Shown here in pieces: positions 48,663 to 64,000 of a DNA stretch of 64,000 nucleotides; position 1 is the stretch's first letter; every line of letters starts with the position of its first letter. The DNA lies in NCBI RefSeq assembly GCF_000266885.1, contig NC_018020.1:3968001-4032000 (forward strand), written 5' to 3'. The notes beneath the pieces were generated by a model. It had not been told where the DNA came from and did no database searches. It was given only the letters and a program-made list of their open reading frames with translations. The position numbers and the translations under genes were made by a program. Source of the DNA: Turneriella parva DSM 21527. Lineage in GTDB: Bacteria > Spirochaetota > Leptospiria > Turneriellales > Turneriellaceae.

Positions 48663-49748
48663 TTAGCTGCTGAAAAACACCGCATCGGTGCCGGTCGCCG
48701 CTGCCTTATGCGCCAGGCCATCGACGAGAAAAATCTCCATCGGCTGCGTGCGGCCACGCACCCGACTCACCTGCAGTTTTCGCACTTTCAGGTCTTGACC
48801 TGCCAGATCGCGGGTTTTGCGATCGATGATGAGATCAAAGCGTGTCTGCTTGGTTAACCCTTCGAGGCGCGCGGCAATATTGACGGTGTCACCAATCACG
48901 GTGTAATCCCTTTTGCGGTATGAGCCGATGGTACCGGCAAATACGCGCCCGGTTGCAATGCCCATGCCGATAGAGATATCTTCTTGTATGTAGGCCGGTT
49001 TCGTGCTGTTGAACAGGTGAAGCGTGTCGCGAATCGCCAGGGCGCACTCAACGGCATTGCGGGCATCGCGTTCACCCCGCACCGGGCAGCCAAAGGTCGA
49101 TAACAGGGCGTCGCCGATAATTTTATTGACTGACCCCTTGTACGTCAGTATTAAATCCATAATATCTGTATAGAGGCGGTTCAACAACGCTGCAATGAGG
49201 TTGGGTTCGACGCCTTCGCTGATGCGTGTAAAATTGCGAATGTCGAGAAAGAAGATTGTGGCTTCGAGATTCTCGCCATAATCGTGGTTTGTGGCTTGCT
49301 GGCCCAGAATCATCTTTACCACATCGCCCGAAAAATACGCTGAAAGTTTCTCGATATGGCCATCGAGTTCGGCGATGCGGCCCGCCAGATTGACCGCCTC
49401 GATCACGCGCCGTACTTTTATGATGAGTTCTGCGTGGTCGATATCAGGTTCAAGAATTTCTGCTACGCCCATCTGCAGCATTTGCTGCCTCTGAGGTTTC
49501 GCGAGGTTCGCACAGATCACAATGACAGATCGCTTTCCCGCATTGCAGTGATGTTGAATTTCGGGCAGAAAGTCAGTATCGACTACCGGAGCATAAAACA
49601 CGAGAAGCTGCGCAGTGTCTGAAACAGGCGGCAGTGGCCGGGTGCCTGAAAAAACGCGGACTTCAGAAAGTGTGCTGAGTGCTGCTATGATACCTTCAGG
49701 GGGTGAATCTGACCGGTGCACCAGGCAGATTGCCGGTTTGCTGCTCAC
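48663..49748 (-). CDS. Class III adenylate/guanylate cyclase with N-terminal receiver-like domain
   Basis: 361 aa. Residues 1-115 fold like a receiver but lack a phosphorylatable Asp at the expected strand (LLVFYAP). After a coiled linker, the cyclase domain (about 155-340) has the two metal aspartates in FFLDIRNFT and KIIGDALLSTF. The Lys in NKIIGD and the segment YTVIGDTVNIAARLE fit an adenylate cyclase, including the transition-state Asn and Arg. cAMP is the likely product. Its start overlaps the stop of the upstream kinase gene by 4 bp, so it is probably its output partner. Confidence 0.85.
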   Translation of the reverse strand: MSSKPAICLVHRSDSPPEGIIAALSTLSEVRVFSGTRPLPPVSDTAQLLVFYAPVVDTDFLPEIQHHCNAGKRSVIVICANLAKPQRQQMLQMGVAEILEPDIDHAELIIKVRRVIEAVNLAGRIAELDGHIEKLSAYFSGDVVKMILGQQATNHDYGENLEATIFFLDIRNFTRISEGVEPNLIAALLNRLYTDIMDLILTYKGSVNKIIGDALLSTFGCPVRGERDARNAVECALAIRDTLHLFNSTKPAYIQEDISIGMGIATGRVFAGTIGSYRKRDYTVIGDTVNIAARLEGLTKQTRFDLIIDRKTRDLAGQDLKVRKLQVSRVRGRTQPMEIFLVDGLAHKAAATGTDAVFFSS

Positions 49749-50992
49749 CCTGCCCTCTGCAACGTCAACTCAGCGACGATGCGATTTGCGCGCTCTGCGC
49801 CGTCGGCCGCAACTTCGGTTGCAGGCAATTCAATCTGGTACAGATATAGCCGCGCGCCACACTGCTCGGCCGCATGCTCGGCCAGAGTCAGGCCAATACC
49901 GAGACCATATTTCTGCTCGCGAAACCGGTCGTCCCACGTATTGTTTAACCTGAAGAACGGCTCGAACACCCGTTTTTCAAAGGCAGCGGGCACGCCGGTG
50001 ACACCGCCGCGCATCGTCTCGATCTCACTCACGACCACCACCGAGTAGATCTCGGGCGTCACATAACACATAAGCCGTACTTTACTTTTCGCGGGAGAGT
50101 ATTTGTAAGCGTTCAAGAGCAGCTCGGCGATGATTTCACCGATCGCCTCAGCGTTGCCGCGCACCGTGCCGACAAATTCGCTCAGCGCCATCACTACTTC
50201 ATGACCCTTAATCGCTCTGAAATGCTCACTGTTTTTGACGGCAGCGGTTATCGCATTATTCACGGTCGTGAACGGCAGCAGATCGGCCTCGTAACGTTTC
50301 TGCAGGCCGGTCAGAATATTTTCAAACGCGGCCAGCCACTGCCGCGCGGCGCTCGCATTCTTGACGAGGCCACTGATCGTTTCGTCACCCTCTTTGATTG
50401 CCTGTATCGCCGGTGACATCTGCAACAGATCGATATAGGTCAATACAGCGCCGATGCCCAGACCCTGTGATGCCGAGTGCAGAATGTTTCGAATCAGTGA
50501 CCGTGCGTATTCGAGCTGGCGGTGGCGTTCTGCATTTTCTTCACCCATGAGCCACTGCGCGGGGTTCTGCCGCCGCAATTGCCGTTTACGCTGCAGCTCT
50601 TGCTGCTCACGCTTCTGCAAGACGAAGGCGAACGCCTTCTTGAGAATCGCGATGATATCGAGCGTGCCGGCATCGCCATCGACGATCGCGAATGTACTCT
50701 GGCACAGATCTTTTTCTGCAGAAAGCCTGCCGTTCTCGGCGTTCCAGATTATGATCAGCAGCGCCGGGTTCTCGCGGCGGCAGAGTAAAATCAGGTTGCG
50801 GCATGAATTGGCATCGCCGGTGGCGAGCAGTGCAATTTCGGGTACTGCTGTGCGTATCGTCTCACCGAGCTTGTCACGTTCGGTGACAAAATGCCGCCGC
50901 GCCTTGAGAACTCCTGAAAGTGCGCTCGAACACCAGGCGACCTGCGCTTCGGTACCGAATATAACGATACCAATGTTCTCTTCGCCGCTCAT
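49745..50992 (-). CDS. Histidine kinase-like ATPase with receiver-like N-terminus
   Basis: 415 aa. Residues 1-125 resemble a degenerate receiver without a clear phosphoacceptor Asp. A helical region follows with a candidate H-box (RNILHSASQGLGIG). The ATPase domain has N-box EIIAELLLNAYKYSP and the G-rich GLGIGLTLAEHAAEQCGA. It is cytoplasmic. The gene overlaps the CheY-like gene upstream and the cyclase gene downstream by 4 bp each, forming a three-gene signalling unit. Whether it phosphorylates the CheY protein cannot be shown here. Confidence 0.8.
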   Translation of the reverse strand: MSGEENIGIVIFGTEAQVAWCSSALSGVLKARRHFVTERDKLGETIRTAVPEIALLATGDANSCRNLILLCRRENPALLIIIWNAENGRLSAEKDLCQSTFAIVDGDAGTLDIIAILKKAFAFVLQKREQQELQRKRQLRRQNPAQWLMGEENAERHRQLEYARSLIRNILHSASQGLGIGAVLTYIDLLQMSPAIQAIKEGDETISGLVKNASAARQWLAAFENILTGLQKRYEADLLPFTTVNNAITAAVKNSEHFRAIKGHEVVMALSEFVGTVRGNAEAIGEIIAELLLNAYKYSPAKSKVRLMCYVTPEIYSVVVVSEIETMRGGVTGVPAAFEKRVFEPFFRLNNTWDDRFREQKYGLGIGLTLAEHAAEQCGARLYLYQIELPATEVAADGAERANRIVAELTLQRAG

Positions 50993-51345
50993 GTCAGAAT
51001 CTGCTTTACGATCGCGAGAAACTGAGCGGGTTTAATGGGCTTGACTATCCAGCCGTCGACGCCGGCATCTTCGCCTGCCTTGCGCTGGCTTTCTTGCCCT
51101 TCTGTCGTCAGCGCGAGAATCGGAATATCGCCGTTCAGCGCCCGCACCGCCTTGACGAATGCGTAGCCATCCATCACCGGCATATTGATGTCGGTAATGA
51201 TCAGGTCGAATTCGCCTGACTTGAATTTTGTCAGCGCGTCTTCGCCCTCTTCGGCCAGGGTAACCTCATGCCCGCCCGACCTTAATGCCTGCGACACGAT
51301 GGCGCGCATCGGCTCTGAATCGTCGACCGCAAGAATGTTTGCCAT
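50989..51345 (-). CDS. Single-domain response regulator (CheY-like)
   Basis: 118 aa, receiver domain only. Acid pocket D8/D9, phosphoacceptor D52 (LIITDINMP), switch Thr in LALTTEG and Lys in VKPIKP are all present. It is very similar to the three other stand-alone receivers at 52.1-53.5 kb. Its 3' end overlaps the kinase gene by 4 bp, so it is the first gene of the kinase-cyclase operon and probably its regulator or relay. Confidence 0.9.
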   Translation of the reverse strand: MANILAVDDSEPMRAIVSQALRSGGHEVTLAEEGEDALTKFKSGEFDLIITDINMPVMDGYAFVKAVRALNGDIPILALTTEGQESQRKAGEDAGVDGWIVKPIKPAQFLAIVKQILT

Positions 51346-51438: not shown

Positions 51439-52095
51439 TTACAATAGATTGTGGTCCATTGCATACTTGACGAGTTCGCTCATCGTCGTGATGCCCAGCT
51501 TTTCGCGCACGTTGCCGCGGTGCGCTTCTACTGTGCGTGCGCTGATATCGAGCCGTTCGGCAATCTCTTTGCTCGTGAGGCCATTGGCGGTCAGGCTCAG
51601 AATTTCTTTTTCGCGCTGCGTCAACAGGTCTGCAGTCAGCGGGCTCGAAAGGTCGGTCGAATAGTCGTCGACGATGAGGCTCGTCATCTCTGCCGAAATA
51701 ACACGTTTGCCCTGGCGAATATCGCTTATGGCGGATATCAATTTATCATGCGTCTCTTCTTTGAGAAGATAGCCTTTCGCCCCTTTTGCGAGAGCCCGCT
51801 TCAGGAAAGGTTTTTCTTTATGAGTCGTCAGCACGAGCACCGCCACCCGGGGAAAGTGCATTTGCATGTATTCGAGAGCTTCGATGCCGTTCATGAGCGG
51901 CATATTCAGGTCGAGCACGACCATATCACAGGGAATTTTCGCCAACAGGTCGAGCAGGTCTTGACCGTTACCGACTTCGCCGACAACCTTGAACCCGGGT
52001 TTGCCTTCGATCAGCACTTTCACGCCGGCGCGCAAGATCGAATGATCGTCTGCGAGAATAATCTGGTAGTCTTTGGGGGCAGCCGTTGTTGACAT
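51439..52095 (-). CDS. NarL/FixJ-family response regulator
   Basis: 218 aa. The N-terminal receiver has D62 as phosphoacceptor (VVLDLNMPLMNG). The C-terminal LuxR-type helix-turn-helix is recognised by LTQREKEILSLTANGLTSKE and IAERLDISARTVEAHRGNV. It is a DNA-binding transcription regulator. The nearest kinase of the matching HisKA_3 class is the LOV kinase at 53.6-56.2 kb, making it the best candidate partner although three CheY-like genes lie between. Confidence 0.92.
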   Translation of the reverse strand: MSTTAAPKDYQIILADDHSILRAGVKVLIEGKPGFKVVGEVGNGQDLLDLLAKIPCDMVVLDLNMPLMNGIEALEYMQMHFPRVAVLVLTTHKEKPFLKRALAKGAKGYLLKEETHDKLISAISDIRQGKRVISAEMTSLIVDDYSTDLSSPLTADLLTQREKEILSLTANGLTSKEIAERLDISARTVEAHRGNVREKLGITTMSELVKYAMDHNLL

Positions 52096-52147: not shown

Positions 52148-52504
52148 CTACAGAATCTGTTTGATGATATCGATGAACTGCGCTGGCTTGAAAGGTTTTA
52201 CAAGCCAGCCGTTCGCACCTGCATCCGCACCTTTTTTTCTCATGCCTTCTTCAGATTCTGTGGTGAGCGCCAGAATCGGCACATCGGCGTTGCGCGAGCG
52301 TATTTCACGAATAAGACCAATACCATCCATCTTGGGCATGTTGATATCGGTGACGACTAGCCCAATATCACTCGTGCTGACGAATTTTTCAAGACCGTCT
52401 TCACCGTCATTCGCGAGAATCACGTTATAATTGCCCGCCGTGAGGGTCATTTTGACCATCTGCCGCATGGTTTCTGAATCGTCTACCGCCAGAATTGTTT
52501 GCAT
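52148..52504 (-). CDS. Single-domain response regulator (CheY-like)
   Basis: 118 aa from ATG 52504 (a GTG six codons upstream is possible). Receiver with D53 as phosphoacceptor (VVTDINMPKMDG), LALTTESEEGMRKKG and WLVKPFKP. It belongs to the local family of near-identical stand-alone receivers. It is separated from the NarL gene by 52 bp. Output target unknown: flagellar switch, kinase or phosphorelay. Confidence 0.9.
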   Translation of the reverse strand: MQTILAVDDSETMRQMVKMTLTAGNYNVILANDGEDGLEKFVSTSDIGLVVTDINMPKMDGIGLIREIRSRNADVPILALTTESEEGMRKKGADAGANGWLVKPFKPAQFIDIIKQIL

Positions 52505-52567
52505 GTTCGCTGAGCCTGCCACGAGACGAGGCTATAGCACGGTTTTCGGCAAAAGTCAATTGAGCAG

Positions 52568-52613
52568 CCTACCTGCCCAGGTAGGTATAGTTACTATACG
52601 TAAGTTTACGTAT
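52568..52613. terminator. Two small hairpins at the end of the third receiver gene
   Basis: CCTACCTG/CAGGTAGG (52568-52585, 8-bp stem, CC loop) and ATACGTAA/TTACGTAT (52596-52613, 8-bp stem, GT loop) lie side by side. The second contains the TAA stop (52608-52606) of the receiver gene. Likely a terminator on the minus strand; no long T-run. Confidence 0.5.
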
Positions 52614-52968
52614 GGCTGACGAGTTGGCGAATCACTTCGAGAAATTGCACAGGTTTAAAGGGTTTCTGCACCCAGCCGTTCGCCCCGGCATCTTGCCCAC
52701 GTTTGCGCATCGCCTCTTGCCCTTCGGTTGTGAGCGCCAGAATCGGCAACTCTTCATGCAGGCGCCGCGCATGCTGAATCAGGTCGATACCATGCATCAC
52801 CGGCATATTAATGTCAGTCACCAGCAGATCAAAATCCTCTGCCCTGAGTTTCTCGAGCGCGTCTGCGCCATTTTGCGCCAGAGTCACCTCGAACCCGGCC
52901 GAGCCGAGCACGAGCCCCACCATTTTGCGCATCGGCTCTGAATCATCGACTGCGAGTACCTTTCCCAT
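52606..52968 (-). CDS. Single-domain response regulator (CheY-like)
   Basis: 120 aa with a good ribosome-binding site (GGAG) before ATG 52968. Receiver with acid pocket D8/D9, phosphoacceptor D52 (LLVTDINMPVMHG), LALTTEGQEAMRKRG and WVQKPFKP. It differs from its neighbours by MHG in place of MDG after the phosphoacceptor loop and Gln before the conserved Lys. It has its own leader and flanking hairpins, so it may be transcribed separately. Confidence 0.9.
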   Translation of the reverse strand: MGKVLAVDDSEPMRKMVGLVLGSAGFEVTLAQNGADALEKLRAEDFDLLVTDINMPVMHGIDLIQHARRLHEELPILALTTEGQEAMRKRGQDAGANGWVQKPFKPVQFLEVIRQLVSHT

Positions 52969-53125: not shown

Positions 53126-53482
53126 TTAACGCAGAAGCTGCCTGATATAGTCGAGTAACGGCTGCGGTTTAAAAGGCTTCACCACCCAGCCGTTCGCCCC
53201 TGCATCATGGCCGCGACGCCGCATTGTTTCTTCTGATTCGGTGGTCAGGGCGACGATTGGCACATCGGGAGAAATAAGGCGCACCTGGCGAATAAACTCG
53301 ATGCCGTCCATATAAGGCATGTTGATGTCGGTAATAATGAGATCGACCGGTGACTTCTGGTACAGCTCTAGCGCCTCGGCGCCATCACCCGCCGAGACGA
53401 CGTCGTAGCCCCCGGCTTTGAGCACCAAGGCGAGCATCTTGCGCATGGGTTCTGAGTCGTCGACAGTGAGAATTTTTGGCAT
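53126..53482 (-). CDS. Single-domain response regulator (CheY-like)
   Basis: 118 aa; AGG about nine bases before ATG 53482 is a possible ribosome-binding site. Receiver with D52 as phosphoacceptor (LIITDINMPYMDG), VALTTESEETMRRRG and WVVKPFKP. It lies 80 bp downstream of the LOV histidine kinase gene on the same strand and is the closest receiver to it, so it is a candidate phosphotransfer partner. Confidence 0.9.
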   Translation of the reverse strand: MPKILTVDDSEPMRKMLALVLKAGGYDVVSAGDGAEALELYQKSPVDLIITDINMPYMDGIEFIRQVRLISPDVPIVALTTESEETMRRRGHDAGANGWVVKPFKPQPLLDYIRQLLR

Positions 53483-53562: not shown

Positions 53563-56193
53563 TCAAGCGGTGGGTGACTGCTGCTCGGGCGGCAGCAGAA
53601 CGTGCAGCGTGAGTCCCTGTGGTGAACTGGTGAAGAACATATGCCCGCGTAAACCGCGAACCCGCTCGCGCATCAGCGCAAGGCCTATGCCTTCGGCGTC
53701 CGCTGCGTCGCTGAATCCTTTACCGTTATCGGTGATTTCGATTTCGAGATTCTTATCGATTCTGCGCGTGGCGATCACGACGCGCGAAGCACCCGAATGC
53801 TTGAGCGCATTCGTGACCGCTTCTTGTAAAATTCGGTAGCAGTTGATACTCCAGTTTTCCGGAAAGAAATTTTCTAGCGCAGCCAGGTCGTGCTGAATCT
53901 CGACGCGCGAGAGTGTCGCCGCAGACTGCAGCATATCTTCAACCGCCAGCGCCAGGCCAACTTTTTTCATGTGGCTCGGGGTGAGCCGGCGTGAAATCTC
54001 ACGGGCTTTGCGCAGCGTCTCTGAAATCGGCTCGAGCAGCAGTTTTTCGTTCTCTGGTGTGCGCAGGTTCTTGTCGTCAAGAAAGCGCAGCAGATTGAGT
54101 TTGGTGAGCACCAGGCTCTGCCCGAGCACGTCGTGCAGCTCGCTCGAGATTTCTGCCCGTTCGGTTTCTGAAATCGCGATGAGTCGCTGCGAGAGTTCGA
54201 GTATGCGCTCGCTCTGTTCTTTGCGCTCGGTGATATCCAGAATCGTGCCGGTATAGCGTTTGGGTGTGCCATCGGCTGCCCGTGCAACGATTCGTCCCCG
54301 GGCGAGAATCCAGACCCAGCGGCCGGTTTTGTGGCGCATGCGGTATTCCTGTTCCATACGGTCTGCAAGTCCGTTTATATGATCGGCCAGAGCCTGCTGC
54401 ATGCGATCGACATCATCAGCATGCAGATGTGTCCACAGGTCTGCCGCCTTATTGACGATCAGCTCGCCTTGATCGTACCCAAGAATTTCGGCGAAGCGGG
54501 CATTAAAGAAAGTCTCGCCGGTCACCATGTCGGTATCGATCAGCCCCAGCTGCGCGCCGGTCAACGCCAGCTCCATTCGTTCGCGAGCCGATTCGAGTTC
54601 AGCTTCGGCCCGCATTTTCTCTGTGACATCCGTCTGAATCGCCACAAAATGTGTCACAGCCCCGGCTTCGTTGCTGACCGGTGCGATATTGAGGCTCGAA
54701 TAAAAGACCTTACCCGACTTATCGTAATTACGCAAAACGAAATCGCCGCCCTCGAAGCGTTTTAGCGCCTCGCGCAGGCGGCGAAGATCTTCTTGGTCGT
54801 TGTCGCCCCGGTGCAAGAAGCGGCAATTTTTGCCGATAACCTCATGCGCGGCGAAACCCGTTATTTTAGTGAAAGCGGCGTTTACATAGGTGACGGGCAT
54901 ATCGGGCAATCTCGCGTCAGAGATGATGACTCCGCTCGCCGAACTGTTCATTGCATGCTCTTGCAGGCGCAGACGCTGTAATTGCTGCAGGTTGCGTTCG
55001 CGCTGCAGATAAACTTCGGTGATTTCGAGAAAACTGGCAACGGCCCCGTTTTGCGTGCCACCGGCCGCCCTTATCGGCGCTGCCGAAACGGACAGCCATT
55101 TGGTAGTGCCATCGGGAAACACGATACCGTGCTCAAACCCCGTTACCGTTTGCCCCTGCTGCAGCGCGCGGCTGAGCGGCAGCACCTCGACAGGCAGCGG
55201 CTGAAAGTTCAGATCAATCTGTTTCCAGTAGTCTGCTTGTTGATAATATCTGCCGGTTACCTTGTCGCGCTGAAGCTCAAGAATCTGTGCTGCGCTGTCG
55301 TTGGCCAAAGTAATTTCGCCCGTAGCTGAAACCACGACAATGCCGTTGATCTGGCTTTCGATCACCGACTGCAGAAACATTTCACGCTCAACAACTTCGA
55401 TTTCGAGTTTTTTTCTTTCGGTGATATCCTGACAGGTGCCAAATGCCTTTTGCGGATTGCCAGCCTCATCGAATACAATGCCCCAGCGTTCTTCGACAAA
55501 TTTAGTGGAGCCATCTGTCGCCACGATTCGGTGCACTATCGAATGCCGCTCAGGGGATTGCAGAGATTCACGAAACGCCTGATCGACCGCTGCCCGGTCG
55601 TCAAGGTGCACAAACGAGAGAAAAGCTTCATGCGTCGCGGCAAAACTCTGCGGATTCAGACCAAATATGCGGTACGTCTCGTGCGACCAGTTTACGGCGA
55701 GTGTTTTCAAGTCGGTTTCCCAACTGCCGATTTTTGCCACTTCTTGCGCGGCCCTGAGGCGCTGCTCGTTTTCGCTGAGTGCCCGCGCGCTTTCACGTGC
55801 GGCCGCGCGCACCCGGGCCTCGCGCACCTCGCGCTCAACTGCTGGCCCCAGGCGCTTCAGCGACGACTTCATGATGTAGTCGACCGCGCCGGCGCGCATC
55901 AACTCGACCGCGACCCCCTCGCCGATTGCCTGCGAGACGATAATAAAAGGAATATCTTTACCGGTGCGGCTCAGAATCTCAAGCGCTGTAATCGCATTAA
56001 ACTGCGGCAGGCGAAAATCTGAGATGACAATATCCCACGGTTGCTCGAGCGCCTTGTTCAGTTCGGCAGAAGTTTCGACGCGCAGGCTGCGCACGGCAAA
56101 GCCCTGCGAGACGATGTGGTGCTCGATCAGCGCCGCGTCGCTGATCGAATCTTCAATGATGATGACCGCGAGCTCTTTGGGCATTGAATTCAT
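53563..56193 (-). CDS. Receiver-PAS-LOV-PAS histidine kinase (putative blue-light sensor)
   Basis: 876 aa, cytoplasmic. Order: receiver (1-125, Asp in VISDFRLP), PAS (about 150-265), PAS (about 275-395), LOV (about 420-530), PAS (about 545-660), HisKA_3 with H687 (SELHDVLGQ) and a HATPase domain. The LOV unit reads SDARLPDMPVTYVN, then GKNCRFLH with adduct cysteine C457, then NYDKSGKVF and FVAIQTDVTE with Q520. The C-to-Q spacing of 63 equals that of oat phototropin LOV2 (C450, Q513). The Asn equivalent to N492 is Ser here. Flavin-based blue-light control of autophosphorylation is the likely role. The start overlaps the upstream kinase gene by 4 bp. Confidence 0.88.
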   Translation of the reverse strand: MNSMPKELAVIIIEDSISDAALIEHHIVSQGFAVRSLRVETSAELNKALEQPWDIVISDFRLPQFNAITALEILSRTGKDIPFIIVSQAIGEGVAVELMRAGAVDYIMKSSLKRLGPAVEREVREARVRAAARESARALSENEQRLRAAQEVAKIGSWETDLKTLAVNWSHETYRIFGLNPQSFAATHEAFLSFVHLDDRAAVDQAFRESLQSPERHSIVHRIVATDGSTKFVEERWGIVFDEAGNPQKAFGTCQDITERKKLEIEVVEREMFLQSVIESQINGIVVVSATGEITLANDSAAQILELQRDKVTGRYYQQADYWKQIDLNFQPLPVEVLPLSRALQQGQTVTGFEHGIVFPDGTTKWLSVSAAPIRAAGGTQNGAVASFLEITEVYLQRERNLQQLQRLRLQEHAMNSSASGVIISDARLPDMPVTYVNAAFTKITGFAAHEVIGKNCRFLHRGDNDQEDLRRLREALKRFEGGDFVLRNYDKSGKVFYSSLNIAPVSNEAGAVTHFVAIQTDVTEKMRAEAELESARERMELALTGAQLGLIDTDMVTGETFFNARFAEILGYDQGELIVNKAADLWTHLHADDVDRMQQALADHINGLADRMEQEYRMRHKTGRWVWILARGRIVARAADGTPKRYTGTILDITERKEQSERILELSQRLIAISETERAEISSELHDVLGQSLVLTKLNLLRFLDDKNLRTPENEKLLLEPISETLRKAREISRRLTPSHMKKVGLALAVEDMLQSAATLSRVEIQHDLAALENFFPENWSINCYRILQEAVTNALKHSGASRVVIATRRIDKNLEIEITDNGKGFSDAADAEGIGLALMRERVRGLRGHMFFTSSPQGLTLHVLLPPEQQSPTA

Positions 56194-59100
56194 CTGGCAC
56201 CTGCCTCGCTTGCCTGATTGCGCAGCGTAAACGAAATAGTTGTGCCTGAGTCAACAGCCGATTCGGCGCTGATTGTACCCTGGTGGCGGTGTACGATACG
56301 TTGCGCCGTAGCGAGACCGATTCCATGACCGGGGTAATCCTTCTCAGAATGCAGACGCTGAAACGGCGCGAACAGGCGGTCGGCGTATTGCATATCAAAA
56401 CCGATACCGTTGTCGCGAATGCAGTAACAGGGCGAGCCTGTGGCTTCTTTCTGAAAGAAGCTAATCTGAACGGCGGGCTTCTGCCGACTGTATTTGACGG
56501 CGTTCTCGAGCAGGTTTCTGATGAGCACTCTGGCAAGCGCGGCATCGGCATAAACGACCATCGCCGGCTGAATTTCTGCTTCGATCTTACTCTCGGGGTT
56601 TTCGATGCGCAGATCGTTCAAAATTTGCTCTGCAATCTGCGAGAGATCGACAGCCGTTATCACCAATTCAGATTGTGAAACGCGCGCAAGCTGCATCATC
56701 GCTTCGCCCATCGAAGTCATGGCAGCCAGCTCACGCCTCACGTACTGCAAGATGTCTTCTGCATTCTGGTCGAATGCACCCCTGAGTTTCTGCTGCAGAA
56801 TATTCAGCCAGCTTTCAGCGCGTACCAACGGTGCCTTCAGATCATGCGAAAGCGAATAGCTGAATGCTTCGAGTTCTTTATTAATCTCTTCAAGCTCGAG
56901 CGTTCGCTCTTTGACCCGTTGCTCGAGCACCTGCGCCAGGTCGCGAACCGACCTCTGCGATTCGACGAGATCGGTAATGTCTGAGGTGACACAGATTGCC
57001 GATTCGATGGCCGGTACAAAACGGCTGATTGCGTGAACCCAGCGAAGCTCTTTGCCCTCTGCCCGGCGCACTCCGAAAGTCTGCGCAAAAGCCTGCTCAG
57101 TAGCCTGATTCGCGATGACTTGCGGCAGCACGCCCTCGGGATAAGGCTGGTGGTTTTCGTCGTAGAATATTGCCCCGCTTGCCGCCACCCCAGAACCGAG
57201 AGCGCTCTGAACTCCGGCGACTTCAATTACCTTGGGGTTTGATCGCAAAACATTGCCCTGCCTGTCGATAACCATTAAACCCACAGGTGCGGCATTAAAT
57301 ACTTCATCGAGCAGAATGGCGTTACGACGCGCTTCTTCGCGGCTGCGCACTTCGCTGTCGATATTCTTGAGAGTGCCCACAAGACGCGAAGCTTTACCCG
57401 CTTCGTCGCGCTCGACGACGACACCGCGGTCTTTTACCCAAATATAGTCGCCGCGTTTGCTGCGCATGCGCAGCGTCATGTCAAATGCTTCCATATCGCC
57501 GCGCAGATACCCCTGCAGATTTTCGTTCATCGCCTGCAAATCTTGCGGATGGATAAGTTTTTCCCAGTCGACGAGGCTGTGCTTGAGTTCGCCCTTGTCA
57601 TAACCGAGCATCGATTCCCAGTGGTGTGAAAATTTTACGGTGTTGGCCCTCGGGTCAAAGTCCCAGACAGCATCGACTGTTGATTCGATGGCAAAGTCGA
57701 GCAGAATCTGGTTTTCCCTGATCTGCTGCTCGGCATAGGTGCGCCAGCGATCGATGGCAAAACGTTCGAGCGCCAGCGAAATTTCGTGCGCCAGCTGCTC
57801 GAAAGATTCAATCATGTGGGCTGAGAAGAAGTTTCCGGGCGCTGCGTAGATATTCAGGCTCATCGGCCGGCCGTTCGAGTGAATGAAATACACACTCGCG
57901 CATGAGTACATGCCATACTTCAGGCGCCCGGGAGTAAAAATGTCATGCGATGTGATATCGAGATGATTAACGAAGACACTGCGCTTCTCGCGCATAGCCC
58001 GGCCGGTAGGCCCCCGCCCTTCGGGCAGGGTTTCGTCTGTAGAAATTTTATGCTCGTCCAGGTACGCCATGGCCTTACCTGCGGCCGCCTTCACGATTAC
58101 CTCTTGCGAATCTGCCGCCTCTTCACCTATCCAGGCGAGCAGCACGTCGTCAGAAACTGTACACGAATTCACAATCTGTTCGAGCAGCACCTCAGCGTCA
58201 GCGGCCTCACCAAACGCCTTGCGGCAATGGCTCAAGAGCTCATAGATAAGCTTGAGCTGCTTTAGCTCCTCATCTTTCTTCTTGCGTGCGGTAATGTCGA
58301 CCATTACGCCGCGCAGCCACCGGGGTTCGCCCGCTTCGGCGACTACCGTCACCAGATCGCGCAACCAGACGATTCGGCCGTCTAACGCCACAAAGCGGTA
58401 CTCAAACTCATGCGGCTGAAGCAATCGCGCGCGCTCGGCACAAAATTGCGGCGCCCAAATTTGGTCGTCTTTGTAAATGTGTGCCTGCCAAAAGCCAGGC
58501 TTCAGCCAGTCGCTCGCCGGGTAACCGAGCAGCCGTTCGGCTTTGCTGCTCACATACGTGAAAGTCACCGTGCGTGCATCAGCCTCCCACACGATACCGT
58601 CAATCGAAGCCACCAGGTCGTCGAGGCGATTGGCGACGCTGATGCGCCTGCGTTCACTCGCTTCGTTTGAAATTGCCAGAAAAATGAACGACGGCATGAA
58701 CGCTGTAGCAAAAAATAAAATGGTCGTTGCAAGGTCGATGCCCGCATCGGTCAGGGTAGAATAATGCGGATCGCTCAGGTACAGAAAATTCGCGATCGTG
58801 CGCAGAGCGAGCGCTAACCCAATGAGGCTGAGAACCGCACGCAGGCCCAGACGCATTCGTTTCGAAACCGCCTCTGAATTGCCGGGCAACACAAATGCCA
58901 TCCAGAGAATGACGAAGGTATGGTATGCAGACGAGATGATTCCCCTGACGGGGCTGCGGTAATCTGCATAGGTAAAATACAGCAACAACAATTCAAAGTT
59001 GATCAAGATCACCCACTGAATACGGGGTACGGGTCTGGCATTGAGCAGCCGATAAAAGCCATCGAGCAAGAGAAGCGTTCCCGGCAGCATGACCGTCGCC

Positions 59101-59309
59101 CCAGGCAAGAGCCAGGCCCATTGGGGGTCATTGCCCCGCAGTACGATAATAATCCAACCTGCGCCGTGCAGCGCCATACCGGCCGCCCATGACAGCATAC
59201 CCACAACGGAATTCTGGCTGCGCCACCGAAGAATCAGAAACCAGCCTGCAAAGAGCAGGCAGTTGACACCGGTCATGAAAGTCAGCGCTGCCGATGATAA
59301 CTGTGGCAT
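56190..59309 (-). CDS. Membrane multi-PAS/GAF histidine kinase
   Basis: 1039 aa. Residues 8-220 carry about seven membrane helices without a large periplasmic loop, like a 7TM sensory module. PAS (about 228-345), GAF (about 355-525), PAS (about 540-665) and a weaker PAS (about 675-795) follow. The coiled coil leads to HisKA with H822 (FSYSLSHDLKAPL, phytochrome-like) and a HATPase domain with NLLENAVKYS, DNGIGF and GHGIGLATAQRIV. Its stop overlaps the LOV kinase start, so both kinases are co-translated. It lies 28 bp downstream of cheR, making it part of the chemosensory unit. Confidence 0.88.
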   Translation of the reverse strand: MPQLSSAALTFMTGVNCLLFAGWFLILRWRSQNSVVGMLSWAAGMALHGAGWIIIVLRGNDPQWAWLLPGATVMLPGTLLLLDGFYRLLNARPVPRIQWVILINFELLLLYFTYADYRSPVRGIISSAYHTFVILWMAFVLPGNSEAVSKRMRLGLRAVLSLIGLALALRTIANFLYLSDPHYSTLTDAGIDLATTILFFATAFMPSFIFLAISNEASERRRISVANRLDDLVASIDGIVWEADARTVTFTYVSSKAERLLGYPASDWLKPGFWQAHIYKDDQIWAPQFCAERARLLQPHEFEYRFVALDGRIVWLRDLVTVVAEAGEPRWLRGVMVDITARKKKDEELKQLKLIYELLSHCRKAFGEAADAEVLLEQIVNSCTVSDDVLLAWIGEEAADSQEVIVKAAAGKAMAYLDEHKISTDETLPEGRGPTGRAMREKRSVFVNHLDITSHDIFTPGRLKYGMYSCASVYFIHSNGRPMSLNIYAAPGNFFSAHMIESFEQLAHEISLALERFAIDRWRTYAEQQIRENQILLDFAIESTVDAVWDFDPRANTVKFSHHWESMLGYDKGELKHSLVDWEKLIHPQDLQAMNENLQGYLRGDMEAFDMTLRMRSKRGDYIWVKDRGVVVERDEAGKASRLVGTLKNIDSEVRSREEARRNAILLDEVFNAAPVGLMVIDRQGNVLRSNPKVIEVAGVQSALGSGVAASGAIFYDENHQPYPEGVLPQVIANQATEQAFAQTFGVRRAEGKELRWVHAISRFVPAIESAICVTSDITDLVESQRSVRDLAQVLEQRVKERTLELEEINKELEAFSYSLSHDLKAPLVRAESWLNILQQKLRGAFDQNAEDILQYVRRELAAMTSMGEAMMQLARVSQSELVITAVDLSQIAEQILNDLRIENPESKIEAEIQPAMVVYADAALARVLIRNLLENAVKYSRQKPAVQISFFQKEATGSPCYCIRDNGIGFDMQYADRLFAPFQRLHSEKDYPGHGIGLATAQRIVHRHQGTISAESAVDSGTTISFTLRNQASEAGAR

Positions 59310-59337: not shown

Positions 59338-60204
59338 CTATTCAGTTTTTTTCTTTCGCGCAAACAAAGTCACATTTGCGGTATTCATTTCGTAATAGCG
59401 CGCGAGACCGAATTCGCGCAGAACATAATCGGTTAAAATGCCGTTCAGTGATTCGGCTGACCCCAGAACCAGTACACCTTCGGGCTTGAGGGCGGCTTTC
59501 ATCTTTTGAAATAGCGCGAGGCGCAGATCGGGCGCAAAATAATACGCGACGTTTCGGCAGAAAATGATATCGAAGCGGTCGGGTGCGGGCTCGGTGACGA
59601 GGTTCATCGGCTTGAATTCGATCGCCGGTAGCAGAGTGCGGTTGATCTGGGCACCCCCGTCGGTTTCGCTGAAGAATTTCTTGCGAAATTTTTCGGGTAA
59701 CCCCCGCGATAGTTCGAAAGAGGTATAGCGCCCCTGAACGGCCTTTGCGACCGACTCTTCAGAAATATCTGTCGCGATAATCTGCGTCTTGCGTACCAGT
59801 TGCAGATGAAACTCAGCGAGCATCATGGCGATTGAGTATGGCTCTTGCCCCGTTGAGCATGCGGCAGACCAGATCTTGAGCGGCGGGTACTGGCCATCGC
59901 CTGCCCCTTGAAAATTGCGCTCTTTCCATTCGGGAATTATCTGCTCAACGAGTGCATCGAAAATACTCTCGTCACGAAAAAAACGCGTTTCGTGGGTCGT
60001 GATTTTTTCAATCACGCGGCTGATGAGTTTCTGGTTGGTACCTTTCTCGATTTCATGCAGCAGGGCGGCATAACTTGAGACACCATGCTCTTTCATCACC
60101 TCGGGAAAGCGGTGTTCGAACAGATAATATTTTTCGGGTTCAATATGCAGGCCGGTGAGCCGTTTGATGGCGTTGGCGATCGCGGGAAAAGCCTGATCAG
60201 ACAT
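59338..60204 (-). CDS. cheR: Chemotaxis protein methyltransferase CheR
   Basis: 288 aa. It methylates glutamates on chemoreceptors with SAM. The N-terminal helical domain is followed by the SAM-binding motif WSAACSTGQEPYSIAMML. TTHETRFFRD, FDIIFCRNVAYYF and VLVLGSAESLNG are standard CheR segments. No C-terminal receptor-tethering repeat or TPR is visible. Its start shares one base with the cheB stop, giving a coupled cheB-cheR pair. Confidence 0.93.
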   Translation of the reverse strand: MSDQAFPAIANAIKRLTGLHIEPEKYYLFEHRFPEVMKEHGVSSYAALLHEIEKGTNQKLISRVIEKITTHETRFFRDESIFDALVEQIIPEWKERNFQGAGDGQYPPLKIWSAACSTGQEPYSIAMMLAEFHLQLVRKTQIIATDISEESVAKAVQGRYTSFELSRGLPEKFRKKFFSETDGGAQINRTLLPAIEFKPMNLVTEPAPDRFDIIFCRNVAYYFAPDLRLALFQKMKAALKPEGVLVLGSAESLNGILTDYVLREFGLARYYEMNTANVTLFARKKKTE

Positions 60205-61247
60205 TATCGCAGATACTCCGTGATTTTTTTTGCCAGCCCTTCGACGTCATGTTCTTCGTCGATGATGCCATCGCGAATGGGCTTTGCCGGCATGCCGAAG
60301 ATGACGCAATCTTCTTGCTGCTGCGCCATAAGGTACGCGCCACCGGCTGACAGGGCCTTCATGCCCATATAACCGTCTTCGCCCATACCCGTCATGATAA
60401 TCGCGGTCGTCTCGGGCGCGCAGAATTCGGCCGCCGAGTTAAACAAGATATTCACCGAGGGTTTGCAAAGCTCTTTCGGATCGCTCTCTTCGACTATAAT
60501 GACTGCGTCGCCGTGGGCATCTGGTTTCAGCCGCATCTGTTTGCCGCCGGGTGCGATGTAGACAGTCGCAGGCTGCGGCCTTACCCCTGTCGTCGCCTCA
60601 ACAATGGTCAGGGCACTTTCTTCGTTGAGGCTTTCTGCGAGCTGTGCGGTAAAAAGGGGTGGCATGTGTTGCACCACAAGAATGCTGCCTTTCAAATCTG
60701 CCGGCAAGAGCTTGAACAGGCGGCGCAGCGCGGGCGGGCCGCCGGTTGAAATGCCGATGAGGCAATAGCGAAACTTCTTGACGGCCCTGGCATCGCGGGC
60801 CTTTAACAGCGGCTTAGGTTCTGCCGGCGCGACCCGGGTGGTGTTGGTTACAACAAACCCCCGAATGTGTTCGAGAAGTTTTGCTCGCAGGTCGTCTGCG
60901 ACGGTGCCGCCGAGGGCCCCCGCCGGCTTGGCAATAAAGTCGTCAGCCCCGAGTTCGAGTGCCTTAAGCGTCAGCCGCGCACCCTGAGTGGTGTGCGTGC
61001 TGAACATGATAATGCGCGTCTTGGGCGAGAGCCGCTTGATTTCGGGTATCGCCGCAAGACCATCCATCTCGGGCATGTCGTAGTCAAGCAACACGATATC
61101 GGGCTTGTAGTGATTGACGCGCGGCATCGCGAGCCGCCCGTTCGAGGCCACCGACACAACCTCTACATCGGTAACCCCTGCCAGCGCGTTTCTGAGAAAG
61201 AGCCTGTAGACTTCAGAATCGTCGACAATCAGAACCTGAGTCTTCAT
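60204..61247 (-). CDS. cheB: Chemotaxis response regulator methylesterase CheB
   Basis: 347 aa. The N-terminal receiver has phosphoacceptor D55 (IVLLDYDMPEMDG). The C-terminal methylesterase has the triad S167 (GISTGGP), H194 (VVQHMPP) and D291 (TGMGEDGYMGM), corresponding to S164, H190 and D286 of Salmonella CheB. It demethylates or deamidates receptors after phosphorylation by CheA. It lies 11 bp downstream of the Aer-like receptor gene. Confidence 0.95.
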   Translation of the reverse strand: MKTQVLIVDDSEVYRLFLRNALAGVTDVEVVSVASNGRLAMPRVNHYKPDIVLLDYDMPEMDGLAAIPEIKRLSPKTRIIMFSTHTTQGARLTLKALELGADDFIAKPAGALGGTVADDLRAKLLEHIRGFVVTNTTRVAPAEPKPLLKARDARAVKKFRYCLIGISTGGPPALRRLFKLLPADLKGSILVVQHMPPLFTAQLAESLNEESALTIVEATTGVRPQPATVYIAPGGKQMRLKPDAHGDAVIIVEESDPKELCKPSVNILFNSAAEFCAPETTAIIMTGMGEDGYMGMKALSAGGAYLMAQQQEDCVIFGMPAKPIRDGIIDEEHDVEGLAKKITEYLR

Positions 61248-61258
61248 CGCCCGGCGAA

Positions 61259-62836
61259 CTACTTGATGACTTTGAATTCCTGAACGACACCGGTCAAGAA
61301 ATCAGAGAGTTTCTTCAGCGCCGACGAAAGCTCAGAAATTTTATGCGCGTCTTTCGCACTGTCAGTCACCGCAGTGCTGATACCAGAGATGTTCTTGTTT
61401 ATCTCGGCCGAAGCGCCCGATATCTGGTTAACGTTGCTCGCAATCTCTTTTGTCGTCATCGATTGTTCTTCGACGGCAGAGGCGATGCTTGCGTTGCCTT
61501 CATTGACACGGTTGATGATGCCGGCTATATTGCCGATCGCCGAGATCGTATCGTCGGTACTTTTCTGAATCGCCTGAATCTGCTTCTTGATGTCTTCTGA
61601 AGAAGCTGCTGTCTGTCGGGCGAGTTCTTTCACTTCAGAGGCCACCACTGCAAAACCTTTGCCCGCTTCGCCTGCGCCGGCCGCTTCAATCGAAGCATTG
61701 AGCGCGAGCATGTTGGTCTGCTCGGCAATTTTGGCGATGATTTCGATCACCTTGCCAATACTTTCAGCACCGGTGCCAAGATCGCGTACAAGCCCCTGCG
61801 CATCTTGCGCGATCGATGCGGCTTCTTTAGAGACGCGCGCGCCTTCTGAAGCTTTGGTTGCCACTTCGCCGATCGATATCGACATCTCTTCGACCGCGCT
61901 CGAAACAACCTGTAGATTCTGATTCATCTGGTTTGCGGCAGATGAAATGCTCGTCGTCTGCTGCGAAATCTGTTCGATACCTGTTGAAAGATTCTGGCTC
62001 GAATCGGCGAGTGTTTTGGCGCCGCTGTTCAGATCTTTGCCCGTTTCAGTCATCTGAAAGATGAGGCCCGAGATATTCGTGTTCATGATCTGAAGCGACT
62101 CGAGAACGCGCCCGGTCTCGGTACTGTCGCGAACGTCTATAGAACGGGTGAAATCCCCCTCGCCCATGTCTTTCAATAGTTCGTTCGCGAGCTTCACGTG
62201 TTTCAAGACGACGCTGCGCGTCCAAAGCAGCACCGGCAGCTTCAGAATGCCGATCGTGAGTCCCGCGCCGACAATGACGACTGCCGGGTAGTTGAGCAGG
62301 TAAAGCGTCAGCGGCACTATGCCCGTCGAAATCGAACCGACGACGAGAAAGCCGAGCCTTGCCCCAATGGGAATTCGGTTCAGAAACCGGGCGAAAGCCG
62401 ATCGGGTGTCGACTTTGGCGTCTTTGCCCTGTTTGTTCAGCTTGAGGTAAAACTGTTCTGCTTTTTCAACCTCTGAGCGCGCCGGGGGCCGGCGCACCGA
62501 CATGAAGCCTGCAAGCCGGCCATTCTTGTACTGCGGTGAAACCTGCGCTTCGACCCAATAGTGGTCGCCCGAATTCGCGCGGTTTTTGACGAGGCCGCGC
62601 CAGGGGTGACCAGTGCGGATTCTTTCCCACATGTCGCCGAACGCCGCCTGCGGCATTTCGGGATGCCTGACGATATTGTGCGGTTCGCCCACCATCGCGG
62701 CATTGTCATATTCAGAGATGTCGCTGAAGTCTTTGCTCGCGTAGACAATGACACCTTTCGGGTCTGTCTTCGAGACGAGCGTTGCTCCCTGCGGTATCGC
62801 TTTTTCTCTGTTGGTTATTGGCTGGTTGTTGCGCAT
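61259..62836 (-). CDS. Aer-like methyl-accepting chemotaxis receptor
   Basis: 525 aa. Residues about 10-115 are an Aer-type PAS domain: [37 protein letters not shown] and [20 protein letters not shown] match the FAD-binding Aer family. A hydrophobic hairpin (about 160-205) without a periplasmic domain anchors it, then a HAMP-like segment and the signalling domain with [20 protein letters not shown]. It probably senses redox state or oxygen through FAD. Encoded between cheW and cheB in one operon. Confidence 0.9.
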
Positions 62837-62851
62837 TTGAACTCCTTGGGC

Positions 62852-63289
62852 TCAGTTGATTCTCGATGCAATGGAATGAAGATCTGGCACGAGAACCAAT
62901 CCATCTTTGGTTTTCGCTACTTTGCGGATAAAATTGCTTTCTGATTCTGTCAGGTTGGCAGGCGGCCTTTCGAGTTCGTCTGCGCCCAGAAACGCCGTGT
63001 CGTTGATCGCATCGGCAACCACGGCGATCGGGTAACCCTGCACGCGCAGACGAATAATGTTGCAGAACTCGGTGAAGGCAGCTTCTTTGCGGTAACCGAG
63101 CAAGACTTCAAGATCGATGACCGTGATCACCGTGCCGCGCAGATTGGCAAGGCCGCGCACAAACGCGGGTGACCGAGGCAGGCGGGTCAGCTGCACGTCG
63201 TTGACAATTTCGCGGCAATGCGCAAGCTCGAGCCCAAACAGGTAAGCGCCCGAAGTCCACCGCAGGTATTCGGTCACAGTATTTGTCAT
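62852..63289 (-). CDS. cheW: Chemotaxis coupling protein CheW
   Basis: 145 aa single CheW domain. LFGLELAHCREIVNDVQLTRLP, VRGLANLRGTVITVIDLEVLLG and YPIAVVADAIND are the conserved CheW segments. It links CheA to receptors. The ATG overlaps the cheA stop by 4 bp, and the gene precedes the Aer-like receptor by 15 bp. Confidence 0.92.
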   Translation of the reverse strand: MTNTVTEYLRWTSGAYLFGLELAHCREIVNDVQLTRLPRSPAFVRGLANLRGTVITVIDLEVLLGYRKEAAFTEFCNIIRLRVQGYPIAVVADAINDTAFLGADELERPPANLTESESNFIRKVAKTKDGLVLVPDLHSIASRIN

Positions 63290-64000
63290 GGGTTTACCGC
63301 CGTGGCTGCGAGCGAATTCTGCATCAGCGCAGTGAGGCTCAGCACGATGACAGTCTCATCTTTAATTATGGCATAACCTTCAATCTCAGCCCGGTCATTG
63401 GCCTCACGCCTGAGAGTGACCTTGTCTTCGACGATGTCCAGAATCGTATCGGCGAGCAATCCGTAACGTCTGCCTTCTGACTGCAGCAGAATCATATTGC
63501 GCTGCGGCACGGCTTCAAAGTTTTCGGGTTTCAGAAAGCCCATCGGCAGAATCGGAATTATCTCATTGCGGTAGTGCACGACCTGGCGATCGACGATCGT
63601 TTCGATATCTTTCGGGTCGACCGATTCGATGCGCGGCAATGCCATAACGCGAAAGGCAATACTGCGGCCATAAAGCTTAAAGAGCAGGTACTGCACTGTG
63701 GCCTCGGCGATCTGTTTTGTGGCGCGCGAAATCTGTTCGTCGGCAGCTGTCGAGTGCAGGTTTGAATGCCTGCCGACCAAAGCTGCGTCGATAATCGGCG
63801 CGATGCGGCCGTCGCCCATGATTGCAGCGCCCGAAAAAACCTGCCGGTCTTGCCCGAACTGCGGCAGCGTCTTCACCACCACTTCTTCGGTCTCGAGAAT
63901 TTTCTGCACACGCAGGCCAAAATAGTATTTTTCGGTTCGCACGACGACGATGTAGGCCATGCGGCGTTCTTTGGCGGGCATCTCGAGTAATTCGTCGGTT
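63286..64000 (-). CDS. cheA: CheA C-terminal part with two CheW-like regions
   Basis: Only the last 238 codons are inside the window; the frame stays open to base 64000, so an internal ATG at 63981 is not the true start. The first part (YYFGLRVQKILETEEVVVKT, then FSGAAIMGDGRIAPIIDAAL) is the second half of a CheA P5 regulatory domain. It is followed by a further CheW-like domain of about 130 residues (YLLFKLYGRSIAFRVMALPR, YGLLADTILDIVEDKV, EGYAIIKDETVIVLSL). The kinase, dimerisation and Hpt domains must lie to the right. Its gene leads the cheW-aer-cheB-cheR operon. Confidence 0.82.
   Translation of the reverse strand, partial: TDELLEMPAKERRMAYIVVVRTEKYYFGLRVQKILETEEVVVKTLPQFGQDRQVFSGAAIMGDGRIAPIIDAALVGRHSNLHSTAADEQISRATKQIAEATVQYLLFKLYGRSIAFRVMALPRIESVDPKDIETIVDRQVVHYRNEIIPILPMGFLKPENFEAVPQRNMILLQSEGRRYGLLADTILDIVEDKVTLRREANDRAEIEGYAIIKDETVIVLSLTALMQNSLAATAVNP

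Follow-up and report, generated by a model that had tools for sequence, protein, structure and literature searches.

Organization of the Locus

The window analyzed here, a 64,000-nucleotide stretch of the genome of Turneriella parva DSM 21527 (4,409,302 bp in two contigs; published as complete, with 1,675x Illumina coverage, PMC3746428), carries on its minus strand a gene with an ATG start (53563..56193) for a histidine kinase of 876 residues, in which the Pfam domain order is REC-PAS-PAS-LOV-PAS-HisKA_3-HATPase_c. All features given below by window position lie on the same strand. The N-terminal receiver domain (55819..56172; Response_reg, 4.5e-12) contains the acidic pair E14/D15, the phospho-acceptor D59, and K109. 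It is followed by PAS1 (55414..55758), a region essentially missing in the aligned kinases of three relatives (genomes G152, G141, and G062), and by PAS2 (55012..55356, Pfam PAS_4). The LOV domain spans approximately residues 412–530 (54604..54960) and is separated from the kinase by PAS4 (54241..54513, Pfam PAS_3). HisKA_3 (53977..54162; 4.1e-06) carries the HDxxxQ motif within ELHDVLGQ, including the phospho-acceptor His687, and the catalytic domain HATPase_c (53584..53841; 1.2e-11) ends the chain. Both kinase domains score above the Pfam cut-offs, identifying the protein as a HisKA_3 histidine kinase and, with the receiver ahead of the kinase core, by its sequence also as a Rec-HK. The HDxxxQ motif is essential to the phosphatase reaction of HisKA_3 kinases (PMC6798134). 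A sequence-only reading of this DNA had named a receiver/PAS kinase of the HisKA_3 type in a chemosensory operon; the Pfam domains bear out the former, the neighboring genes the latter, and the strings that it quoted, SDARLPDMPVTYVN, GKNCRFLH, NYDKSGKVF, and FVAIQTDVTE, are all present in the 876-residue frame.

The minus-strand gene order opens with a 118-residue protein, followed by CheA (818 residues; the window edge cuts it, leaving the C-terminal end at 63286..64000, and the entire gene was read on L044:1787-4243), CheW (62852..63289), an MCP with an N-terminal Aer-type PAS domain (61259..62836; match to 8dik, 1.6e-34), CheB (60204..61247), CheR (59338..60204), and a partner kinase of 1039 residues (56190..59309) with a hydrophobic N terminus and PAS, GAF, PAS, HisKA, and HATPase domains. 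A CheW-like frame of 231 residues at 63286 was considered as a separate CheW and rejected, since it is the end of the 818-residue CheA. The junctions from CheA to the LOV kinase are overlaps or gaps of less than 30 nt, with the partner kinase and the start of the LOV kinase sharing 4 nt.

Past the LOV kinase come three single-domain receivers (53126..53482, CheY-like; 52606..52968; and 52148..52522), a NarL/LuxR-type response regulator (51439..52095), a fourth receiver (50989..51345), an HATPase_c protein (49745..50992) that overlaps the genes on both sides by 4 nt, and a class III nucleotide cyclase (48663..49748; Guanylate_cyc, 2.9e-25). The gaps here are 52–157 nt up to the last three genes, so the downstream genes may be separate transcripts. 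The N-terminal part of the cyclase appears receiver-like by eye. A link from chemotaxis to cyclic nucleotides through this enzyme is possible, and the Aer-type PAS of the MCP may be a second flavin-type sensor in the operon. Only three HisKA_3 genes are present in the T. parva genome (C1:1949070, 1569455, and 4021974), and a GerE regulator lies no more than 3 kb from each of them (1950139, 1570963, and 4019460), which makes the regulator at 51439..52095 the best candidate partner of the LOV kinase and its proposed output.

The LOV Pocket

The GxNCRFL motif is present as G454-K-N-C457-R-F-L. The candidate adduct-forming Cys457 (TGC, 54823..54825) and Gln520 (CAG, 54634..54636), the counterpart of Q513 of AsLOV2 and the active-site glutamine, were both placed by codon position and alignment; their spacing of 63 residues agrees with the earlier count. 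Asn456 is kept beside the cysteine, Arg458 and Arg474, equivalent to the phosphate-contacting R451 and R467, are conserved, and so is Asn489 (N482 equivalent), the first of the two pocket asparagines and the one that is retained. The exceptions are His461 in the position of Q454 and Ser499 in that of N492, exactly the two differences previously noticed. Because of these two residues, the domain has seven of the nine residues of an auxiliary rule that asks for eight of nine (PMC9098866), falling short of what is a search filter and not a definition of LOV domains.

The flavin pocket was assessed from residue identities alone. The N492A variant of AsLOV2 still photocycles, with a τ of 54 s against 80 s in the wild type, and N492Q was expressed too poorly for study (PMC3903614); in the alignment, a LOV domain encoded on a Sphingomonas plasmid, with an otherwise canonical motif, also has serine in the column of Ser499. 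Since the N492A variant photocycles and the Sphingomonas domain has the same serine, flavin binding by the T. parva domain is to be expected.

Comparison with LOV and PAS Domains

In a phmmer search of the PDB, the best match of the domain is MrLOV (9vf7, E 3.6e-29), and all 60 of the best matches listed are LOV proteins or fusions containing LOV; with such an E value and such company, the likeness to LOV is far beyond chance. Two discriminating profiles were made, one from 19 LOV domains (15 plasmid records and four PDB rows) and one from 22 spirochaete PAS domains. The T. parva domain scores 112.6 bits on the PAS profile and higher on the LOV profile, the difference being +31.5 bits, compared with −3.4, −6.2, and −14.9 for PAS1, PAS2, and PAS4 of the same kinase. 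When each reference was left out in turn, LOV domains gave +39.6 to +68.2 and PAS domains −81.7 to +16.7. The domain is thus on the LOV side and yet lies between the groups, under every reference LOV and above every reference PAS. Inspection of rows L013–L038 found PAS domains without the cysteine, save L021, and L039 lacks it as well. The value of +16.7 belongs to L021 (genome G217, match 1501-1809), where GQTCIMLQ includes the cysteine and not the arginine that would follow it; this domain is possibly a divergent LOV.

The tree places the T. parva domain and that of G152 as sisters (support 100/98) within the LOV reference group, in which the forks have moderate support (81/88 and 80/85), with bootstrap values not yet settled. 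The AlphaFold model, computed from an alignment of 11 rows, has a pLDDT of 87.7; its top structural match is MrLOV (Z 21.1, 1.2 Å over 134 residues), and LOV structures make up all Foldseek and VIA rows listed for it. Taken by sequence search, profiles, tree, and predicted fold, the domain belongs with the LOV photoreceptors, as the sequence-only reading had proposed, and the profile comparison that it called for came out on that side.

Scanning viral_contigs with a single-sequence query returned no match. An alignment-based scan of the same collection gave 13 LOV-type loci, ten of which served only to deepen the alignment for structure prediction. Two IMG/VR contigs catalogued as viral (L061 and L062, 155 and 212 kb) encode a full LOV domain with NCRFLQ, and in the LOV domain on a plasmid of Vibrio coralliilyticus (L060) the cysteine is retained and the active-site glutamine is replaced by leucine.

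Distribution in Spirochaetota

The census of Spirochaetota covered 393 genomes by protein search and an equal number, drawn from the phylum, by motif search. An intact Cys-LOV with NCRFL was found in at least three of the 393 sampled genomes, namely T. parva, G156, and G208, two of them from the protein search and a third added by the pattern. These counts are lower bounds, since the pattern is strict on NCRFL and the protein loci come from the 30 best matches. Five of the eight pattern matches were rejected, the motif being outside any LOV reading frame. G156, from the same family as T. parva, has a multi-PAS kinase of another architecture whose LOV reads NCRFLQ (L086, 1-2409), with the position of the glutamine falling in a run of N. 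G208, from the same class, has a PAS-LOV-HisKA protein with an intact Cys-LOV. A search of 48 genomes found no further strong Cys-bearing match in the class, and a scan of genome_contigs with the full LOV kinase found one distant PAS kinase only.

The kinases of the Turneriella relatives, whose placement in the genus follows a database kinship listing, were compared by alignment. The G152 kinase is REC-PAS-LOV-PAS-HisKA_3; its cysteine is replaced by Asn (AAC) and the adjacent Arg by Ser, with Gln, Asn, and the remainder of the domain kept. The G062 kinase combines a receiver without its Asp, a LOV-derived PAS in which Ile replaces Cys, a further PAS, and HisKA_3; that of G141 is REC-PAS-HisKA_3, with LOV absent. 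Identity to T. parva in G152, G141, and G062 is 61, 65, and 22% for the receiver and 65, 51, and 47% for HisKA_3, respectively; G062 is the most divergent, so the term orthologue is used most safely of the other two. The light chemistry is therefore not conserved across the genus, and such a kinase can serve without the adduct.

Outside the class, a hybrid histidine kinase of G305 (L011, match 1501-1833) includes a domain of the LOV clade with Ala for Cys and Ser for Gln. The Cys-less domains of G152 and G305 are nested in the tree amid Cys-bearing LOVs and are consequently read as losses; with so few genomes, the cysteine may instead have been gained separately in T. parva.

G141 and G152 likewise have a homologue of the partner kinase ahead of the kinase. 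In G141, the two follow an MCP-CheB-CheR run. The G062 kinase is preceded by a STAS-like protein, CheA, an MCP, CheW, and a receiver, and a NarL-type regulator lies close by. In G152 the che cluster (L075) is without the kinase pair, which is located on another contig. The association with a che cluster is thus repeated, not universal.

Comparison with Known Systems

The closest solved relative is MrLOV from the Mrub_1259 histidine kinase of Meiothermus ruber (9vf7/9vf8), at approximately 40–46% identity over the LOV domain, to which the comparison is confined. Both have the GxNCRFL motif and the glutamine, but in T. parva two residues of the pocket differ, being His and Ser. A LOV domain joined to a histidine kinase is also found in LovK of Caulobacter, LOV-HK of Brucella, and the engineered YF1; to this arrangement T. 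parva adds an N-terminal receiver, extra PAS domains, a HisKA_3 kinase, and a chemotaxis operon. The NCBIfam model of blue-light-activated histidine kinases (NF052306) matches residues 406–539 only, at 122 bits against a cut-off of 450, so the kinase is not assigned to that family.

The pair of adjacent kinase genes resembles LvrA-LvrB of Leptospira, a PAS kinase next to a receiver-led kinase. LvrA phosphorylates LvrB in vitro (PMC5863495), and LvrB is activated by phosphorylation of its receiver (PMC13269768). Transfer between kinases, shown for Lvr, is proposed for the T. parva pair by analogy, with the difference that LvrB, a short receiver-kinase, has no LOV domain. The best NCBIfam score of the partner kinase is to LvrA, and the receiver part of the LOV kinase matches LvrB, but at 168 bits against 1200 and 78 against 500 these scores are far under the family cut-offs, so that Lvr is used as a working model and not as a family assignment.

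Photosensing had been described as unusual for this group, a claim that did not hold. The motility of Leptospira kobayashii is controlled by light, and Spirochaetes already appear in the figure of a 2014 survey of LOV and BLUF proteins. T. parva itself is the source of TpPAC, a light-activated BLUF adenylyl cyclase that has served in optogenetics (PMC6218482), and the one BLUF protein in its genome (G000:C1:1401437-1401715) is taken as TpPAC. Like the LOV kinase, TpPAC is a flavin-based blue-light sensor of the same species, but it is BLUF and not LOV, a cyclase and not a kinase, and is encoded at another locus. No paper on a T. parva LOV kinase turned up among openly accessible publications, and supplementary tables of surveys could hold an earlier annotation. 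Natural LOV domains without the cysteine have been described (PMC4682037), and the LOV-clade domains of G152 and G305 are of this kind, whereas T. parva keeps the cysteine, in a genus that mixes Cys-plus, Cys-minus, and LOV-less related kinases.

Putative Mechanism and Alternative Explanations

We estimate a probability of roughly 0.7 that the domain carrying Cys457 is a blue-light LOV module of the flavin-cysteinyl-adduct type in a receiver-gated histidine kinase, a reading built on sequence comparison and the predicted fold. FMN would occupy the LOV pocket, and blue light would yield an adduct between Cys457 and FMN, with N5 protonated. From there, Gln520 and the β-sheet could carry the signal into the helix that comes next, PAS4, and the HisKA_3 dimer, so that the balance of kinase and phosphatase would shift. 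Whether the kinase can be active would be decided by its receiver, which probably obtains its phosphoryl group from the kinase of the gene just upstream or from CheA. The NarL-type regulator, whose gene lies a few genes further downstream, would be the next to receive the phosphoryl group, presumably changing transcription. Because the LOV margin is slightly below that of all 19 references and because relatives in Turneriella lost the cysteine or the domain, light control of the kinase is something that we infer.

Redox sensing is already a theme of the operon through the Aer-type PAS of the MCP, Cys-less LOV domains sense flavin reduction (PMC4682037), and G152, with Asn for Cys, has kept the Gln, the Asn, and the rest of its LOV domain. 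All of this would suit a LOV fold that was kept for a signal other than light, the redox state of the flavin or oxygen, with Cys457 incidental or decaying. We consider this unlikely, as T. parva retains Cys457 together with Arg458, Asn456, and Gln520, and as G152 is represented by one MAG contig only, with the adjacent Arg lost as well. Still less probable is a domain that has ceased to bind flavin in any useful way and serves as a simple dimer or linker module of the PAS type, for which His461 and Ser499, the score margin under the reference LOVs, and the LOV-less relatives could be cited; AsLOV2 N492A photocycles nonetheless (τ of 54 s, PMC3903614), the Sphingomonas LOV combines the same serine with an otherwise canonical motif, and one would not expect the reactive Cys and the Gln to survive unused. 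An ordinary PAS domain with a cysteine by chance is hardly credible. PAS and LOV have one fold in common and the domain does reach 112.6 bits on the PAS profile, but it scores higher as LOV and stands among LOV references in the tree, and the reference PAS rows score opposite or near zero, save the Cys-bearing L021.

Returning to the blue-light module, a more specific and rather doubtful proposal is that the kinase is a gate with two inputs, in which a kinase of the chemosensory operon phosphorylates the receiver and blue light acts via LOV, only jointly switching the transcription factor, and that the relatives keep the gate and lost the light chemistry. If so, the Turneriella kinases would be a natural series for a LOV photosensor being repurposed or discarded.

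Implications

A LOV histidine kinase is an ordinary kind of protein, real in the T. parva genome, and the series of losses in its relatives adds interest; what is new is the rarity of Cys-LOV in Spirochaetota (at least three of 393 genomes) and the loss of the cysteine or of LOV in Turneriella relatives. With this finding, a spirochaete already known for a BLUF cyclase gains a LOV-type sensor, linked by its operon with chemotaxis of the Aer type and with a nucleotide cyclase, so that control of gene expression or motility by light is directly testable in a free-living spirochaete. Kinases with and without the reactive cysteine in one genus offer a natural comparison for the loss of LOV signaling, and with the REC-LOV-HisKA_3 layout, receiver-controlled kinases, LvrB among them, gain a test case that can be addressed by light.
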